A model generated the notes under the pieces. It was not told where the DNA came from and did not search any database. It was given only the letters and a program-made list of their open reading frames with translations. A program made the position numbers and the translations under genes. DNA of 64,000 nt from Leucobacter massiliensis (GTDB lineage Bacteria; Actinomycetota; Actinomycetes; Actinomycetales; Microbacteriaceae): positions 56,107 to 120,106 of the forward strand of contig NZ_MWZD01000023.1 of assembly GCF_002982315.1 (NCBI RefSeq). Reading direction: 5' to 3'. This document shows positions 28,282 to 36,137 of the stretch, in pieces (the stretch's first letter is position 1; every line of letters begins with the position of its first letter).

Positions 28282-29646
28282 ATGGCAGACATAAGCAGAA
28301 CTTCGGATGCGGTGTTCCCGGTCGGGATCGCGCTCGACGGCGCGGGGTGGCACCCCTCGGCGTGGCGGGATGGGGGCGCGCACCCCGAGCGGGTGTTCAC
28401 CGCGGCCTACTGGGGCGCGATCGCCGAGCTCGCCGAGCGCGCCGGGCTCGACTACCTCACGATCACCGACGCACTCGCTCTGCAGGAGGACCCGCGGGCG
28501 GGCTTCGGCGCCGAGCGGGCCGTGCCGCCGCACCCCGTGCCCGGCATTCCCAGCGGCCGCCTCGACGCCGAACTCATCGCGAGCTGGATCGCGCCGCGCA
28601 CCGAGCGGATCGGGCTCATTCCGGCCGTCACCACCACGCACACCGAGCCCTTCCACGTCGCCACCGCGCTGCAGACCCTTGACCACGTCTCGCTCGGCCG
28701 GGCGGGCTGGCAGCTCCGCATCTCCCCGGGGGCCGCCGAGGCCGCCGCGCTCGGCCGTCGCCCGGCGCCCGGCATCGATCCCGCCCGCGTCGCGGCCGGA
28801 GAGCCCGATCCCGCCCTCGACGCGCTGCTCGACGAGGCGGCCGATGCTGCGGAGGTCGCCCGCCGCCTCTGGGACAGCTGGGAGGACGACGCGATCATCC
28901 GCGACGCGGAGACCGGCCGCTTCCTCGACGCGGAGCGGCTGCACCACATCCGCTTCACGGGCGAACACTTCTCCGTGATCGGCCCCTCGATCGTGCCGCG
29001 CTCGCCCCAGGGGCAGCTCCCGGTCACCCTGCTCGCCCACTCGGCCCCCGTGTACCGGCTCGCGGCGCGCGCCGCCGACGTCGTCTTCGTCACCCCGCAT
29101 CCCGATCCCGCGACGAACGCCAGCCCCGGCGCGCGCACCGCGGCGCAGATCGTCGCCGAGATCCGCGAGATCGAGGGCGGCGCCGCCCGCGCGGGTCGGG
29201 GACTCGCCCCGCTGCGGATCTTCGCCGATCTGCTCGTGGCGCTCGACGGCGAAGCCGGGCCGGCGGGGGAGCGTCCCGCGGCTGCCGCCCCGGAGACGGG
29301 CCCCGAGCGCATCGCCCGGCTCGACGCGCTCGGGATCCCGCTCGCGAGCGACGCGCATCTCGCCGCGGGATCCGCGAGCGACATCACCGAGCTCATCGAA
29401 CACTGGCGCGAGCAGGGCATCGAGGGCGTGCGCCTGCGCCCCGCCTCGAACCATCTCGACCTGCCCGCCATCGCCCAGAGGCTGCTGCCCGAGCTGCGCC
29501 GCCGCGGCCTCGGCGGGGCGACACCCGGTGGCGGGCGGGGGGCCGGGACCACGCTGCGCGAGCGCTTCGGCCTCCCCGCCGCCCAGAACCGTTACGCAAG
29601 CGAGCGCCGAGACACCATCCCGAGCACGAAGGAGCGAGCCGCATGA
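28282..29646 (+). CDS. LLM-class flavin-dependent oxidoreductase
   Basis: Luciferase-like TIM-barrel monooxygenase, 454 residues, expected to use reduced FMN and oxygen. Visible elements are GLDYLTITDALALQ, RIGLIPAVTTTHTEPFHVA, TLDHVSLGRAGWQLRISP and VPRSPQGQLPV. The last matches the flavin-site segment of the second monooxygenase (VPRSPQGYPV). It is first in an operon whose next gene starts inside its stop codon. Context (acetyltransferase, amino-acid transporter, methionine salvage) suggests oxidation of an organosulfur compound; the substrate is unknown. Confidence 0.88.
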   Translation: MADISRTSDAVFPVGIALDGAGWHPSAWRDGGAHPERVFTAAYWGAIAELAERAGLDYLTITDALALQEDPRAGFGAERAVPPHPVPGIPSGRLDAELIASWIAPRTERIGLIPAVTTTHTEPFHVATALQTLDHVSLGRAGWQLRISPGAAEAAALGRRPAPGIDPARVAAGEPDPALDALLDEAADAAEVARRLWDSWEDDAIIRDAETGRFLDAERLHHIRFTGEHFSVIGPSIVPRSPQGQLPVTLLAHSAPVYRLAARAADVVFVTPHPDPATNASPGARTAAQIVAEIREIEGGAARAGRGLAPLRIFADLLVALDGEAGPAGERPAAAAPETGPERIARLDALGIPLASDAHLAAGSASDITELIEHWREQGIEGVRLRPASNHLDLPAIAQRLLPELRRRGLGGATPGGGRGAGTTLRERFGLPAAQNRYASERRDTIPSTKERAA

Positions 29647-31157
29647 GCACCACCCCCGAGCCGAAGCGCCAGGCGCGCCTCGTCGCGCACTTCCCCGGCG
29701 TCAACAGCACCACCGTGTGGCGCGACCCCGAAGCGGGAAGCCAGATCGACTTCGCGTCGTTCCGGCACTTCGCGCGGACCGCGGAGCGCGGGCTCTTCGA
29801 CTACATCTTCTTCGCGGAGGGGCTGCGGGTGCGTGAGCACGGCGGCCGGTTTCACGAGCTCGACGTCGCCGGCCGACCCGCCACCCTCACCATCCTCGCC
29901 GCCCTCGCCTCCGTCACCGAGCGCATCGGGCTCGTAGGCACCCTGTCGAGCACCTTCAACGAACCCGTGGAGCTTGCCCGCCGGCTCGCCACGATCGACC
30001 ACCTCTCCGGCGGCCGCGTCGGCTGGAACGTCGTCACCTCGCCCGACGCCTTCCACGGCGCGAACTTCCGCCGCGGCGGCTTCCTCGACTACGGCGATCG
30101 CTACCTGCGCGCCGAGGAGTTCGTGCGGATCGCCAAGGAGCTGTGGGACTCGTGGGAGCCCGGCGCGGTCGTGGCCGACGCGGAGCACGGCGTGTTCGCC
30201 GATCCGGATCGCGTACACCCGGTCGTCCATCACGGCCCGCAGTTCGACATCGCCGCCACCAGCACGGTGCCGCGCAGCCCCCAGGGGTACCCGGTGATCG
30301 TGCAGGCCGGCGACTCGCCCGCGGGCCGCGACTTCGCGGCGGCGAACGCGGAGGTCATCTTCTCACGGCACACCGGCTTCGAGGACGGGCGCCGCTTCTA
30401 CGCCGATGTGAAGGGGCGACTGGGAGCGGCGGGCCGCAGCGAGGAGTCGCTGCTGATCCTGCCGGGGGCGACCTTCGTGCTCGGCGATACGGCGGCCGAG
30501 GCGGCCGAACGATCCCGCGAGATCGCCCGGCAGCAGATCAGTCCGCAGACGGCGATCGCCTGGGTCGAGGCGATCTGGGGCCGCGCGATCCCGGGTCTGG
30601 ACCCCGACGGGCCGCTCCCCGCGGAGGATCCCGGCGACGGCGAGCAGCGTCAGGGCCAGGTGAGCACGCAGGTGGCGGATCGCATCGCCCGCGCCCGCGA
30701 GCTGCGGCAGCGCGCTGAGGCCGAGGGGCTCACGCTGCGCGAACTGGTCATCGCCGAGACCGCCCAGCACACCTTCGTCGGCACCCCTGCGCACGTGGCC
30801 GCCGAGATCGACCGCCACGTGCAGCAGCGCGCCTCCGACGGCTTCGTGCTCGTGCCGCACCTCACGCCGAGCGGACTCGACGAATTCGTGGACCGCGTCG
30901 TGCCGCTGCTCCAGGAGCGCGGCGTCTACCGCAGCGAGTACCCCGTCGACCCCGCCACGGGCACGACGACGCTGCGCACCACGCTCGGGCTGCCGGAGCC
31001 GTCGCGGCCCGCGGCGCCCCGGTCCCGCGGGGAGGAGACGCCCCGGAACGGGGGGCGAGCCGGGCGGCAGGATCCCGAACAGCAGTCCCGGCACGCTCAG
31101 TACCCCCAGCACGCCCAGCTCCCCCAGCACCAGCGACAGGAAGGAGCGGCCGCGTGA
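29643..31157 (+). CDS. NtaA/SnaA/DmoA-family FMN-dependent monooxygenase
   Basis: 504-residue luciferase-fold monooxygenase of the nitrilotriacetate / dimethyl-sulfide / pristinamycin type. Family marks are NSTTVWRDPEAGSQIDFASF, FFAEGLR, GLVGTLSSTFNEPVELAR, LDHLSGGRVGWNVVTS-like sequence (IDHLSGGRVGWNVVTS) and VQAGDSPAGRDFAAANAEV. The last 60 residues are a His/Gln/Pro-rich tail of no known role. The start overlaps the upstream stop (ATGA) and its stop overlaps the GNAT gene start (GTGA). In Bacillus subtilis the relatives YtnJ and YxeK act in S-modified cysteine breakdown beside a GNAT acetyltransferase, as here. Confidence 0.9.
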   Translation: MSTTPEPKRQARLVAHFPGVNSTTVWRDPEAGSQIDFASFRHFARTAERGLFDYIFFAEGLRVREHGGRFHELDVAGRPATLTILAALASVTERIGLVGTLSSTFNEPVELARRLATIDHLSGGRVGWNVVTSPDAFHGANFRRGGFLDYGDRYLRAEEFVRIAKELWDSWEPGAVVADAEHGVFADPDRVHPVVHHGPQFDIAATSTVPRSPQGYPVIVQAGDSPAGRDFAAANAEVIFSRHTGFEDGRRFYADVKGRLGAAGRSEESLLILPGATFVLGDTAAEAAERSREIARQQISPQTAIAWVEAIWGRAIPGLDPDGPLPAEDPGDGEQRQGQVSTQVADRIARARELRQRAEAEGLTLRELVIAETAQHTFVGTPAHVAAEIDRHVQQRASDGFVLVPHLTPSGLDEFVDRVVPLLQERGVYRSEYPVDPATGTTTLRTTLGLPEPSRPAAPRSRGEETPRNGGRAGRQDPEQQSRHAQYPQHAQLPQHQRQEGAAA

Positions 31158-31921
31158 CCATCACCGCCGAGCCCCGAGCCGGGCTCCCGCCCGCCCCCGT
31201 CTACGCCTTCGCCTATGTGCGCTACGACGATCCCCTCGGCGCGCCCCTGCTGCGCGATCTGGAGCGCGAGTACGACAGCCGCTACGGCGTCGAGGTCTTC
31301 GGCGAGCCCGCCGCGGCGGAGATCAACCGCTATCCCGCGGCGGCCTTCGCCGAACCGGACGGCGCGTTCCTGCTGCTGCTGGAGGACGGCGAGCCCGTGT
31401 CGGGAGGCGCGTTCTTCCGCCTCGACGAGCGCACCGCGGAGGTGAAGCGGGTGTGGACTCGCGCGGACCGCCGCGGCCGGGGTCTCGCGCGCCTCGTGCT
31501 CACCGAACTGGAGCACGAGGCGAAGCGCCTCGGCTACGAGCGGATCTATCTCACCACCGGCCCGCGCCAGCCGGAGGCGGTCGCGCTCTACCGCGGGCAC
31601 GGCTACACGCCGCTCTTCGACGTGGCCCTGCCCGCCGCTGAGATCGGCGTGCACCCCTTCGAGAAGTCGCTCGCGGAGATCCCCGTGCAGTCGCGCCGCC
31701 GCACCGTCGAAGTGGCGGCGAAGGCGGCGACCGTTCCCGCGACGGCTGAGACCGCGGCGCCTGAGACCGCGGCGCCTGAGACCGCTGAGACGGCTCCCGC
31801 GGCCACCGCGCCCGCGACGAGGCGAGTGGGTGACGCGCCTGCGGGGACTGGCTCCTATACACATCTGACGCCCGCCGACCATATGCAGGGGGGTAGGGTC
31901 CGGGGGTGGCGGGGCCACTAA
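31154..31921 (+). CDS. GNAT N-acetyltransferase, C-terminus corrupted by adapter
   Basis: GNAT acetyltransferase with domain at residues 1 to about 175. The acetyl-CoA loop is RADRRGRGLA (103-112), and LTTGPRQPEAVALYRGHGY is the C-terminal part of the fold. It is followed by an Ala/Pro/Thr/Glu linker encoded by a 15-base repeat (2.7 copies, 31746-31785). From codon 232 the protein reads SYTHLTP and onward, which is translated sequencing adapter rather than gene. The true end is therefore unknown. It resembles YtmI/SnaA enzymes that acetylate S-substituted cysteines before cleavage, in keeping with the coupled monooxygenase gene. Confidence 0.75.
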   Translation: MTITAEPRAGLPPAPVYAFAYVRYDDPLGAPLLRDLEREYDSRYGVEVFGEPAAAEINRYPAAAFAEPDGAFLLLLEDGEPVSGGAFFRLDERTAEVKRVWTRADRRGRGLARLVLTELEHEAKRLGYERIYLTTGPRQPEAVALYRGHGYTPLFDVALPAAEIGVHPFEKSLAEIPVQSRRRTVEVAAKAATVPATAETAAPETAAPETAETAPAATAPATRRVGDAPAGTGSYTHLTPADHMQGGRVRGWRGH

Positions 31922-31932
31922 AAAAAAAAAAA
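31848..31932 (+). other. Sequencing adapter remnant (Nextera read-through), not genomic
   Basis: Bases 31848-31866 match the Tn5/Nextera mosaic end at 17 of 19 positions. Next comes a near match to the fixed adapter part, eight bases in the index position (ATATGCAG region, about 31881-31888), a G-corrupted copy of the P5-side primer and 13 A at 31920-31932. Order and spacing equal those of a library adapter read past its end, and most mismatches are changes to G, typical of low-quality two-colour base calls. The genomic sequence on either side may not be contiguous. Confidence 0.93.
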
Positions 31933-31951
31933 CAGTCACAGCGACCGCCGG

Positions 31952-32908
31952 GTGGTGCCACTCAAGCACCGCCTCCGCTGGGTGCTCAGCGCGCTCGCGG
32001 CCTTCCTGCTCGCGCAGCTCGTGTGGACCTTCTTCACGAATCCGCAGTGGCGGTGGAACGTCTTCGCCGAGTACTTCTTCAATGACGCGGTGCTCCGCGG
32101 GGTGTGGCTCACCCTGTGGCTCACGGCGGTGTCGGCAGTGATCGGCTTCGCGCTCGGCGCGGTGCTCGCCCTGGCACGGCTCTCGGGCTCCGCGCTGCTG
32201 AACTCCTTCGCCTGGGGGTACATCTGGTTCTTCCGCTCGGTGCCGCTCGTCGTGCAACTGGTGCTCTGGTACAACCTCGGGTACCTCTTCCCGACGCTCG
32301 GGATCGGCTGGCCCTTCACTTACGACTTCTGGGTGGTCGAGTTCAACACCGTGCAGCTCATCTCGGCCTCGGCCGCGGCGATCCTGGGCCTGTCGCTGCA
32401 CCAGGCCGCCTACTCGGCGGAGATCATCCGCGGCGGCCTGCTGTCGGTGGATCAGGGCCAGATCGAGGCGGCGAAGGCGCTCGGGATCCCGCGCCGCAGG
32501 CGGTTCTTCCGCATCGTGCTGCCGCAGGCGGCCCGCGCGATCCTGCCCAGCGCCTTCAACGAGGTGATCGGACTGCTCAAGGGAACCTCGGTGGTGTTCA
32601 TCGTCGCCCTGCCCGAGCTGTTCTACACGGTGCAGGTGATCTACAACCGCAACCAGCAGGTGGTGCCGCTGCTGCTGGTCGCGACGGTCTGGTACACGAT
32701 CTTCACCTCGGTGCTGAGCGTGATCCAGTTCACCATCGAACGCCACTTCGCCCGCGGTTCCGCGCGGGAGCTGCCTCCCACGCCCCTGCAGCGCGCCCGA
32801 CGTGCGCTGCGGCGCCTGGCCGGAGGCGGGGGGCGAGCCCGCCGCGACCTCGCATCCGCGCCGCTTCCCGCATCGTCCGTCGCCGCCATCACCGCAAGCC
32901 AGCGCTAG
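31952..32908 (+). CDS. Polar amino-acid ABC transporter permease, start uncertain
   Basis: HisM/GlnP-type membrane subunit, about 318 residues from GTG 31952. It has five or more hydrophobic helices and the cytoplasmic EAA loop EAAKALGIPRRRRFFRIVLPQ that docks the ATPase. IWFFRSVPLVVQLVLWY is the family's second helix region. Coding-like sequence (SHSDRR) continues in frame upstream until the adapter at 31932, so the real start was probably lost and the N-terminus is incomplete. The C-terminus is a basic Ala/Arg-rich tail. It belongs with the ATPase and two binding proteins downstream. Confidence 0.82.
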   Translation: MVPLKHRLRWVLSALAAFLLAQLVWTFFTNPQWRWNVFAEYFFNDAVLRGVWLTLWLTAVSAVIGFALGAVLALARLSGSALLNSFAWGYIWFFRSVPLVVQLVLWYNLGYLFPTLGIGWPFTYDFWVVEFNTVQLISASAAAILGLSLHQAAYSAEIIRGGLLSVDQGQIEAAKALGIPRRRRFFRIVLPQAARAILPSAFNEVIGLLKGTSVVFIVALPELFYTVQVIYNRNQQVVPLLLVATVWYTIFTSVLSVIQFTIERHFARGSARELPPTPLQRARRALRRLAGGGGRARRDLASAPLPASSVAAITASQR

Positions 32909-32918
32909 GAGACGCCTC

Positions 32919-33773
32919 ATGAGCACTCGAACCGTCACCCGGCCCGCCGCGGATTCCGCCGCGAGTCCCGCTGCCGCGGATTCCGCTGCCGGAACGCCCG
33001 CCGCCCGCCCGCCCGCCGGGCTCGTGCAGATCACCGGGGTGCACAAGTCCTACGGCGAGCACGAGGTGCTGCACGGCATCACCCTCACCGTGCAGCCGGG
33101 GCAGGTGGTCGCCCTGCTCGGCCCCTCCGGCTCGGGCAAATCGACGCTGCTGCGCGCGATCAACCACCTGGAGACCATCGACCGCGGCGAGATCACCATC
33201 GACGGCGAGTTCATCGGCTACGAGCAGCGGGGCGATCGCCTCATCGAGCTGCCTGAGAAGCGGGTGCTGGAGCGCCGCACCCGCGTGGGCATGGTGTTCC
33301 AGAACTTCAACCTCTTCCCGCACCTGACGGCGCTGGAGAATATCGCCGAGGCCCCCATCGCTCTGAAGCGGGCGGGCAAGGCGCAGGCGACGGCCCGGGC
33401 GCGCGAGCTGCTCGCCCGCGTCGGGCTCGCGGATCGCGGCGGCCACTACCCCCGGCAGCTCTCCGGCGGTCAGCAGCAGCGGGTCGCCATCGCCCGGGCA
33501 CTCGCCCTCGACCCCGATGTGCTGCTCTTCGACGAGCCGACGAGCGCGCTCGACCCCGAACTGGTCGGCGAGGTGCTGCAGGTGATCCGCGATCTCGCGC
33601 GGGGCGGCACGACGCTGATCATCGTCACCCACGAGATCGGCTTCGCCGCCGAGGTCGCCGATCACGTCGTCTTCCTGGACGGGGGGCGGATCGTGGAGCA
33701 GGGCCCGCCCGAGCGGGTGCTGCGCGATCCCGAGCACGCCAGAACCCAGGAGTTCCTCGACTGGGTCATCTGA
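32919..33773 (+). CDS. Polar amino-acid ABC transporter ATPase
   Basis: GlnQ/HisP-type ATPase, 284 residues from ATG 32919, ten bases after the permease stop. P-loop GPSGSGKST, Q-loop MVFQNFNLFPHLTALEN, signature [15 protein letters not shown], Walker [15 protein letters not shown] and H-loop VTHEIGFA are all intact. The first 30 residues are an Ala/Pro-rich extension. A longer in-frame start inside the permease is unlikely. The closest relatives by motif serve cystine, glutamine or other polar amino acids; the substrate here is inferred to be sulfur-containing from the neighbours. Confidence 0.93.
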   Translation: MSTRTVTRPAADSAASPAAADSAAGTPAARPPAGLVQITGVHKSYGEHEVLHGITLTVQPGQVVALLGPSGSGKSTLLRAINHLETIDRGEITIDGEFIGYEQRGDRLIELPEKRVLERRTRVGMVFQNFNLFPHLTALENIAEAPIALKRAGKAQATARARELLARVGLADRGGHYPRQLSGGQQQRVAIARALALDPDVLLFDEPTSALDPELVGEVLQVIRDLARGGTTLIIVTHEIGFAAEVADHVVFLDGGRIVEQGPPERVLRDPEHARTQEFLDWVI

Positions 33774-33782
33774 GCCCGCCCG

Positions 33783-33817
33783 CCCGATCCGATCCGCACG
33801 CACCCGATCCGATCCGC
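33783..33817 (+). repeat. 15-base direct repeat
   Basis: CCCGATCCGATCCGC occurs at 33783-33797 and 33803-33817, each made of two GATCC-type halves. It sits in the 165-base gap before the first binding-protein gene. No role is evident. Confidence 0.6.
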
Positions 33818-33938
33818 GCACCGGCCAGGCGGCGCCGGGCGGACGCGCGCCGCGCGCGCCCGGATCCCGCCGCCATCCCCGATCCACCTCGCTCTTGCAC
33901 ACCCCCGCCATCCACCGACCGAACAGGACCACGCCCCG

Positions 33939-34973
33939 ATGACTCACTTCACCCCACTCCGGCACCGCGGCCGTGCGGGCCGCCTGGGACGGCTCGCCCT
34001 CACCGGCGCCGCCGCCCTCGCGCTGACGGGCCTCGTGGCCTGCAGCAGCCCCGCGGGCGCCGACACCGCGGGCACCGGCTCCAGCGGCTCGGGATCGGCC
34101 GCCACCGGCTCGCCCTTCGACCTCACCTCCGCCAACGTCGACGGCCGCCCTCATATCGACCCCGTGCCCGAGGCGGTCGCCGCGCTCAAGGCGAGCGGCT
34201 TCACCCCCGTCGAGGCGGGCAAGCTGACGGTCGCGCAGGGCGCCTTCACCCCGCCCATCAGCTTCCTCGCGGAGGACGACAACCAGACCCTGCTCGGTGC
34301 CGACCCCGACATCGGGCAGCTCGTCGCCGAGGGCCTGGGGCTCGAATTCACGCCGCAGAACGTGGCCTGGGCCGACTGGCCGCTCGGCGTGCAGTCGGGC
34401 AAGTACGACGCCGTGATCGCGAACGTCACCGTCACCGAGGAGCGCAAGGACCTCTTCGACTTCGCCACCTACCGCGACGATGTCCTCTCCTTCGCGGTGC
34501 AGGCGGACAGCGACATCGACTCGATCACCGAGGCGAACGACGTGTCCGGGCTGAAGGTCGTGGTCGGCAGCGGCACCAACCAGGAGAAGATCCTGCTGAG
34601 CTGGTTCGACGAGAACGAGAAGAACGGGCTGCCGCCCGGAGAAGCGGTCTACTACGACGACACCGCAGCCGCCGCACTCGCCCTCGCCTCAGGCCGGGTC
34701 GACGCGATCTTCCAGCCCAACTCCACGAACGCCTACAACGCGGCCGTGAACGGCGAGACCAAGATCGTCGGCACCCTCAACGGCGGCTACCCCGAGAACG
34801 CCCAGATCGGCGTCGCCACGGCGAAGGGCAACGGCCTCGCCGAAGCCGTGTCGATCGTCCTCGACTCCATCATCGAGAACGGCCAGTACCAGGACGTGCT
34901 CGACCGCTGGGCGCTGCAGGACGAGGCCGTCACCGAATCCCTCGTCAACCCGCCCGGCCTGCCGCGGCCGTAG
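33939..34973 (+). CDS. Amino-acid-type ABC binding lipoprotein, copy 1
   Basis: Family 3 extracellular solute-binding protein, 344 residues. The signal peptide ends with lipobox LVAC, so it is lipid-anchored outside the membrane. Bilobed fold markers include EDDNQTLLGADPDIGQLVAEG, AWADWPLGVQSGKYDAVIAN and VTEERKDLFDFATYRDD. It is a close paralogue of the next gene; both end NPPGLPRP. A 12-bp hairpin follows the stop. It shares one permease/ATPase pair with copy 2, so the two may widen the substrate range. Confidence 0.92.
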   Translation: MTHFTPLRHRGRAGRLGRLALTGAAALALTGLVACSSPAGADTAGTGSSGSGSAATGSPFDLTSANVDGRPHIDPVPEAVAALKASGFTPVEAGKLTVAQGAFTPPISFLAEDDNQTLLGADPDIGQLVAEGLGLEFTPQNVAWADWPLGVQSGKYDAVIANVTVTEERKDLFDFATYRDDVLSFAVQADSDIDSITEANDVSGLKVVVGSGTNQEKILLSWFDENEKNGLPPGEAVYYDDTAAAALALASGRVDAIFQPNSTNAYNAAVNGETKIVGTLNGGYPENAQIGVATAKGNGLAEAVSIVLDSIIENGQYQDVLDRWALQDEAVTESLVNPPGLPRP

Positions 34974-34980
34974 GGCGACG

Positions 34981-35011
34981 GCCCGGGTCCGCCGCCGCCG
35001 CGGACCCGGGC
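34981..35011 (+). terminator. Hairpin between the two binding-protein genes
   Basis: A perfect 12-bp GC stem (34981-34992 with 35000-35011) has a 7-base loop and starts eight bases after the copy 1 stop. There is no T-run. It is likely a partial terminator. Confidence 0.55.
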
Positions 35012-35105
35012 TGCGCCACCGCAGCGTCAGCGCTCCCGCAGCGCCGCGCACCCGGCCCTCGCGCCGATCCCGACATCCGACACCACCGAGCAGGAATCCG
35101 CACCC

Positions 35106-36137
35106 ATGACCCACCGCTTCGCAGCCCGCCGCACCACCGCCCGCCGCACCGCCCTCACCGCCGCACTCGCACTCGCCTCGGTAACGCTCCTCGCCTGCTC
35201 GGCCGTGGTCACCGAGCGCACAGGCGCTTCCGGCCCCGGCGCCGCAGGCTCCGGCCCGGCCGGAGGCGAGTCGCCCTACGACCTCACCACCGGCAGCCTG
35301 GACGGACGGCCCCACATCGACCCGATCCCGGAGGCCGTCGCCGCGCTGGAGGCGAGCGGTTTCGAGCCGGTCGAGTCCGGCACGCTCACGGTGGCCCTCG
35401 GCGGTGCGGGCACACCGCCCACCTCGTTCTTCGCGGAGGACGACTCGCAGACGATCATCGGCAGCGACCCCGACTTCGCCTCGCTCATCGCCGAGGGCCT
35501 GGGCCTCGAGTACGCACCCGAGAACGTCGCCTGGGCCGACTGGCCGCTCGGCATCGAGTCGGGCAAGTACGATCTCGCCCTCACGAACATCGGGGTCACG
35601 GAGGAGCGCAAGGATCTCTTCGACTTCGCCACCTACCGCGACGCCGTCATGGGCTTCATCGTGGCCGCCGACAGCGAGGTGGAGCGCATCGAGGAACCCG
35701 CCGATGTGTCGGGCCTCAAGGTCGTGGTCGGCAGCGGAACGAACCAGGAGCGCTTCCTGCTCGACTGGTTCGCGCAGAACGAGGCGGCGGGGTTGCCGCC
35801 GGGCGAGGCCGTCTACTACGACGACACCGCGGCCGGCCTGCTCGCACTGACCTCGGGCCGCGCCGACGCGAGCATCATCCCCTACTCGCTGGCGAAGTTC
35901 CAGGAGACGACGCTGGGCGAGACCCGCGTGGTCGGCTCCTTCAACAGCGCATACCCGGTCACCGGCCAGGTCGGCGCGGCGACGGCGCGCGGCAACGGGC
36001 TCGTGGAACCGGTCGCCATCGTCTTCCGCGAGCTCATCGACAGCGGCGTCTACGCGGAGGTGCTGGCCCGCTGGGGGCAGGAGGACGAGGCGGTGAGCGA
36101 ATCCCTCATCAACCCGCCCGGGCTGCCGCGGCCGTGA
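35106..36137 (+). CDS. Amino-acid-type ABC binding lipoprotein, copy 2
   Basis: Second family 3 binding protein, 343 residues, with lipobox LLAC. Long stretches are identical to copy 1 (NVAWADWPLG, TEERKDLFDFATYRD, VVVGSGTNQE, LPPGEAVYYDDTAA). The ligand-lobe region after residue 230 differs (IIPYSLAKFQ versus IFQPNSTNAY). This is what one expects of a tandem duplication with diverging specificity. Its stop overlaps the start of the FAD-binding gene by four bases (GTGA), tying transport to that enzyme. Confidence 0.92.
   Translation: MTHRFAARRTTARRTALTAALALASVTLLACSAVVTERTGASGPGAAGSGPAGGESPYDLTTGSLDGRPHIDPIPEAVAALEASGFEPVESGTLTVALGGAGTPPTSFFAEDDSQTIIGSDPDFASLIAEGLGLEYAPENVAWADWPLGIESGKYDLALTNIGVTEERKDLFDFATYRDAVMGFIVAADSEVERIEEPADVSGLKVVVGSGTNQERFLLDWFAQNEAAGLPPGEAVYYDDTAAGLLALTSGRADASIIPYSLAKFQETTLGETRVVGSFNSAYPVTGQVGAATARGNGLVEPVAIVFRELIDSGVYAEVLARWGQEDEAVSESLINPPGLPRP

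Follow-up and report, generated by a model that had tools for sequence, protein, structure and literature searches.

The window analysed here, a stretch of 64,000 nucleotides of the Leucobacter massiliensis genome (C16:56107-120106 of a 24-contig draft of 3.14 Mb), carries at 28282-36137 a likely operon that includes two luciferase-like flavin monooxygenases (PF00296), a GNAT-permease gene, an ABC ATPase and two family-3 solute-binding proteins. In the likely GNAT-permease gene two coding parts are separated by 85 bases, and profile matches above the cut-off were obtained on both sides of them, with PF00583 for the GNAT acetyltransferase and with PF00528 and TIGR01726 for the permease. The order of the features is as follows.

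31154..31847, + strand: genomic DNA, GNAT acetyltransferase part and left half of a linker (assigned by PF00583 and by fused relatives).
31848..31866, + strand: Nextera/Tn5 mosaic end in read-through orientation, 17/19 bases, by reading and by template alignment.
31867..31881, + strand: fixed part of the read-2 read-through adapter, GACGCTGCCGACGA with errors (two substitutions and one inserted base).
31882..31889, + strand: i5 barcode TATGCAGG, which is TATGCAGT in other copies of the same genome.
31890..31919, + strand: P5-side primer copy, largely miscalled to G, corrupted but alignable to the template.
31919..31921, + strand: in-frame TAA that ends the GNAT frame, formed where the P5-side copy gives way to the A run (its last base plus the first A).
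31920..31932, + strand: run of 13 A, poly-A run-off past the end of the library molecule; such tails also stand behind other copies.
31933..32908, + strand: genomic DNA from somewhere in its first bases on, with the linker's right end and then the polar amino-acid ABC permease part (BPD_transp_1; PF00528, TIGR01726).

Our results show that positions 31848-31932 are almost certainly an Illumina Nextera read-2 adapter, untrimmed and miscalled, with run-off poly-A behind it, and not bacterial DNA. In a global alignment with a template composed of the read-2 adapter, TATGCAGT, P5 and poly-A the insert scored 99.0, while 200 shuffles of the part behind the mosaic end reached a mean of 53.0 and a maximum of 70.5 (z of 7.1 for the insert). 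When the read-2 template was scanned over the whole window it scored 68 at the insert and 36 at the next separate place, and three shuffled read-2 templates gave best scores of 32, 32 and 33 in the same scan; the read-1 composite, with a best score in the window of 36 against 32-35 for its shuffled versions, found nothing beyond the shuffles. The run of 13 A is unique in this 64 kb window of 71% GC, where the next longest run of A or T is 4, and from the poly-A tails we assume that a four-colour instrument was used. The barcode at the insert reads TATGCAG(T), which we take to be index S506, its partner on the read-1 side being presumably N710. Of the template sequences, the two transposase read-through sequences were checked in print, in PMC3906532.

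The original prediction had named this segment as an adapter with a 17/19 mosaic end, a fixed part, eight index bases, a G-rich P5 copy and 13 A. All of these could be read at the place it gave, and the identity is borne out by the template alignment, by the barcode that the copies share and by the 35 matches found elsewhere in the genome. Its boundaries of 31848 and 31932 are correct by direct reading, save that the right edge may extend some bases beyond 31932, because run-off noise behind the poly-A is indistinguishable from genomic sequence. The peptide SYTHL, which it had considered the usual protein trace of this adapter, occurs in the ORF 31154-31921; a literature search for SYTHL as such a trace gave nothing related.

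The insert is one of 36 places in the draft that match the mosaic end with at most 3 mismatches, the 35 others lying elsewhere, whereas the reversed pattern had 0 matches. Of these places, twelve are no more than 200 bases away from a contig end, where 0.11 would be expected, and four stop exactly there. With the read-2 composite including the barcode, 28 places were found at E <= 1e-3, among them the insert (3.6e-7), and with the read-1 composite 7; the reversed read-2 composite had no match at E <= 10, an empty answer that is weak evidence in that search. Past the mosaic end, 24 of the 32 scorable sites (at least 30 bases) beat all of 200 shuffles and 8 did not, eight more sites of less than 30 bases being too short to be scored. 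The word GCCGACGATATGCAGTG, which spans barcode and adapter, occurs at 5 exact and 3 one-mismatch places, and at 37 places with at most 3 mismatches; since the reversed word also gives 6 places, the weaker of these matches are partly chance. Because of this ratio of 6 to 37 and of the 8 sites that failed against the shuffles, some single sites may be chance matches or may be too corrupted. In contig C7 two adapter copies face one another. The same adapter-bearing stretch is present twice in contig 10 (G000:C10:140056-141274 and 149601-150819; L117, L118), with 878 shared 25-mers when both strands are counted, and another is present twice in contig 9 (G000:C9, near 49.5 kb and 825 kb; L114/L153 and L150), with 316 shared 25-mers. 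These duplicated stretches are a sign of chimaeric assembly on C10 and C9. Taken together, the 35 further adapter matches indicate that the assembly, and not the organism, is at fault.

Can the insert nevertheless be a natural element? The 19-base mosaic end is the site recognised by the Tn5 transposase, as would be expected if the strain truly carried a Tn5-type or engineered insertion, but it is followed by barcode, P5 and poly-A and by no transposon, and it recurs at 36 sites, many of them at contig ends. A 9-base target duplication is absent, the longest word common to the 40-base flanks being of 5 bases. With neither target duplication nor transposon cargo at the insert, such an insertion was rejected and we regard it as extremely improbable.

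The presence of many copies in one genome could also be attributed to a dispersed repeat native to the organism, and here the barcode offers a simple test that tells contamination from a native repeat. An eight-base index is common within a library and differs between libraries, and this is what was found for the insert when its own genome was compared with another Leucobacter genome, G046. Many mosaic-end copies in the L. massiliensis draft continue into the same barcode. Read from the eight bases that separate the fixed part from the primer, the i5 barcode was TATGCAGT in 2/5, TATGCCGG in 2/5 and TAAGCAGT in 1/5 of the matches in the draft, while it was TCTTACGC in 30/30 matches of G046, TACTCCTT in one match of G044 and ACTACCTT in one of G010. 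On the read-1 side we found CGAGGGTG and CGGGGCTG in two matches of the draft and CGAGGCTG in its locus L151, and GCTCATGA in 12/12 matches of G046; the barcodes of the draft are thus variants of TATGCAGT and CGAGGCTG. From one contaminated genome to another the barcode pair thus changes in the manner of a library index, and therefore a native or otherwise biological repeat is as good as impossible.

By protein and by locus the draft has its relatives in Leucobacter, and a control over this genus gave a concordant result: among 54 genomes, including that of L. massiliensis, 8 had any match to the mosaic end and 46 had none. The copies were 72 in G046, 36 in L. massiliensis, 7 in G032, 5 in G010 and 3 in G044, and G004, G012 and G051 had one each, at 2 or 3 mismatches. 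The lone matches of these last three genomes, as well as the lone 3-mismatch matches of G006, G014, G031 and G047, may be chance, the reversed controls giving 3 matches over the 54 genomes in each of two genus scans. The differing barcode, the crowding of the copies at contig ends and their absence from 46/54 genomes led us to reject the native repeat. In G046 the 72 matches are listed as exact save one and are sited at contig ends, with the barcodes TCTTACGC and GCTCATGA; this genome is an untrimmed assembly rather than an imperfectly trimmed one.

The errors in the copies suggest why they survived. Over the 36 mosaic-end sites (a version with 40 rows, containing four composite matches of which at least 2 have a gap inside the mosaic end, was superseded), no site was exact, one site had a single mismatch, 25 sites had two and 10 had three. 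An extrapolation fitted to the classes of 2 and 3 mismatches, which assumes independent and equal error rates, would lead one to expect ~29 exact and ~39 one-mismatch sites, against the 0 and 1 found. Since under this simple model the 0- and 1-mismatch classes are missing, we suggest that near-exact adapters were removed by the read trimmer or by a submission screen and that the miscalled ones were left. The errors are biased towards C, which replaces T in 35 of 44 errors at T and replaces A in 12 of 22 errors at A. For MiSeq second reads, PMC4381044 reports T to C at 40% and A to C at 85%, with which our bias agrees in direction only, and gives a higher error rate than for first reads, with which the excess of read-2-type over read-1-type copies (28 versus 7) is in line. 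In practice, screening for near-exact matches can leave just the miscalled adapters behind.

We then ask what the adapter interrupts. The original prediction had called the site a probable misjoin, that is, a junction of flanks whose true positions in the genome lie apart. Chimaeras are indeed present in this assembly, as the doubled stretches on contigs 10 and 9 and the facing copies on C7 indicate, but the relatives speak against one at this site. In L. weissii (L011) and L. soli (L013), 2 of the 17 Leucobacter loci, the GNAT frame continues into the permease with no stop; in the other 15 the GNAT and then the permease are adjoining genes on the same strand. Two genomes of the genus (G027 and G015) match the whole protein read through the join without a stop, among the matches listed, and in G052 both parts fall, again among the matches listed, in open frames of equal reported length (756 residues). 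When the insert is left out, the linker would be of ~66 residues, inside the range of 30-103 found in 13 distinct relatives. Since L. weissii and L. soli carry the sequences of both sides in a single open frame, the flanks seem to be correctly ordered and oriented here, and a misjoin is highly improbable. A junction of distant loci was rejected, the counterparts of the flanks sharing one frame in 2 and being adjacent genes in 15 of the 17 Leucobacter loci examined.

The original prediction also held that two genes are disrupted, which is likely wrong, since the homologues most similar over both parts are single GNAT-permease proteins. From the sequence comparison we propose that the locus likely contains one gene for a fusion of a GNAT acetyltransferase with an amino-acid ABC permease, and that a stop codon brought in by the adapter interrupts it in the variable linker. 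The GNAT frame to the left of the adapter and the permease frame are in the same phase in the assembly and are interrupted by the TAA of the adapter, and the left part runs without a stop to the adapter through a long Ala/Pro/Glu-Thr linker, as in fused relatives. The best 18 database matches combine both domains in one protein, covering 49-100% of the query, and of the 120 best database proteins listed, 58 combine GNAT and permease domains, for example in L. weissii (P0014, 545 residues) and L. exalbidus (P0018, 589 residues). The taxa with fusions among these best 120 are Leucobacter, Agreia, Gulosibacter, Streptomyces, Curtobacterium and Cellulomonas. Two separate genes, with the adapter clipping the end of the one for the GNAT and the start of the one for the permease, would be in line with the 15/17 Leucobacter loci in which the GNAT stop precedes the permease anchor by 62-137 bases, and with the permeases annotated on their own in L. 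weissii (P0044, 325 residues) and L. soli (P0041, 336 residues). These two entries start inside the linker, and since they are listed in the sources, relatives with an open frame are not always called as fusions. Against the shared phase, the stop-free linker and the two-domain proteins among the best 18 matches, we consider two separate genes to be unlikely. The listed GTG start of the permease at 31952 is likely not the true start.

The distance between the anchor motifs FEK and RVVPL is of 282 nt in the window, from which subtraction of the 85 bases leaves 197 nt, or 65.7 residues; the comparison of linkers took only sequences matching both motifs (P0003 and P0010 are among those dropped). 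As 197 is not a multiple of three, the flanks would be out of frame after removal of the insert, and therefore the join is more than a simple insertion of just these 85 bases. Either an edge is blurred, through errors in the reads or noise from the run-off, or the assembly lacks a few bases of the genome, as the original prediction had thought possible, and the true bases at the join are not readable from it. The protein read through the join found its best matches at 72-76% identity over 97-100% of the query, or at up to 90% over half of it; no protein of the same species was thus recovered, nor the true linker.

How did the adapter enter the contig? The alignment shows a library fragment shorter than the read, so that the read ran on through mosaic end and fixed adapter into the i5 barcode, then through the P5 primer and past the end of the molecule into poly-A. 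At the error-rich end of the read, the adapter was likely missed by a trimmer tolerating about one mismatch, as the missing 0- and 1-mismatch classes suggest, and the assembler or a gap filler likely brought it into contig 16 together with the ends of short-insert reads. There it likely bridged a poorly covered, GC-rich linker between two contig ends, whose order, supported by the relatives, would be the correct one. The copies exactly at contig ends, the facing pair on C7 and the doubled stretches on C10 and C9 lead us to favour an extension of a contig end by error-laden read ends, which were then joined to the next contig. The outcome is a false stop that splits a likely single GNAT-ABC permease fusion into two annotated genes, the first of which gains an adapter-coded tail.

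Of what lies at the join, only the likely fusion gene has some biological interest. Its permease is that of a polar amino-acid ABC importer, with the best model matches to cystine, and the second flavin monooxygenase lies above, and the first below, the cut-off of TIGR03860 (NtaA/DmoA). The likely operon resembles an operon of Bacillus subtilis that acetylates and oxidises modified cysteines; a literature search for this Bacillus acetylation-oxidation operon gave nothing related. We tentatively put forward that the adapter hides one putative protein in which a GNAT tethered to the importer permease might acetylate an amino acid at its entry, to be processed then by the two upstream flavin monooxygenases. 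If true, amino acids that contain sulfur or are modified would here be imported, acetylated and oxidised in one line. More generally, with 36 matches in the draft, proteins that end or start at such sites have adapter-coded tails or false ends, and the likely fusion gene stands recorded as two.

The insert is an artefact of a known kind, almost certainly absent from the organism. A literature search for adapter pieces in public genomes returned mostly genome reports. Turner (2014; PMC3906532) describes read-through in Nextera and Nextera XT libraries from inserts shorter than the read, with a possible effect on de novo assembly, and the sequence here shows the same succession of mosaic end, fixed read-2 part, index, primer and sequence past the molecule; by way of difference, the insert sits inside a finished contig, and only error-laden copies are seen here. 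According to the FCS-GX preprint (PMC10246020), roughly a tenth of the prokaryote submissions of 2022 contained contaminants, and pipelines miss a part of them. The insert belongs to the same common contaminant class as the adapters screened at NCBI that are treated there, with the difference that the copies surviving in this draft carry mismatches. The nearest parallel within the genus, G046, shares with L. massiliensis the Nextera mosaic ends, the fixed part and the presence of a barcode, although its copies are nearly all exact, lie at contig ends and carry another barcode pair, whereas those of L. massiliensis are mismatched.
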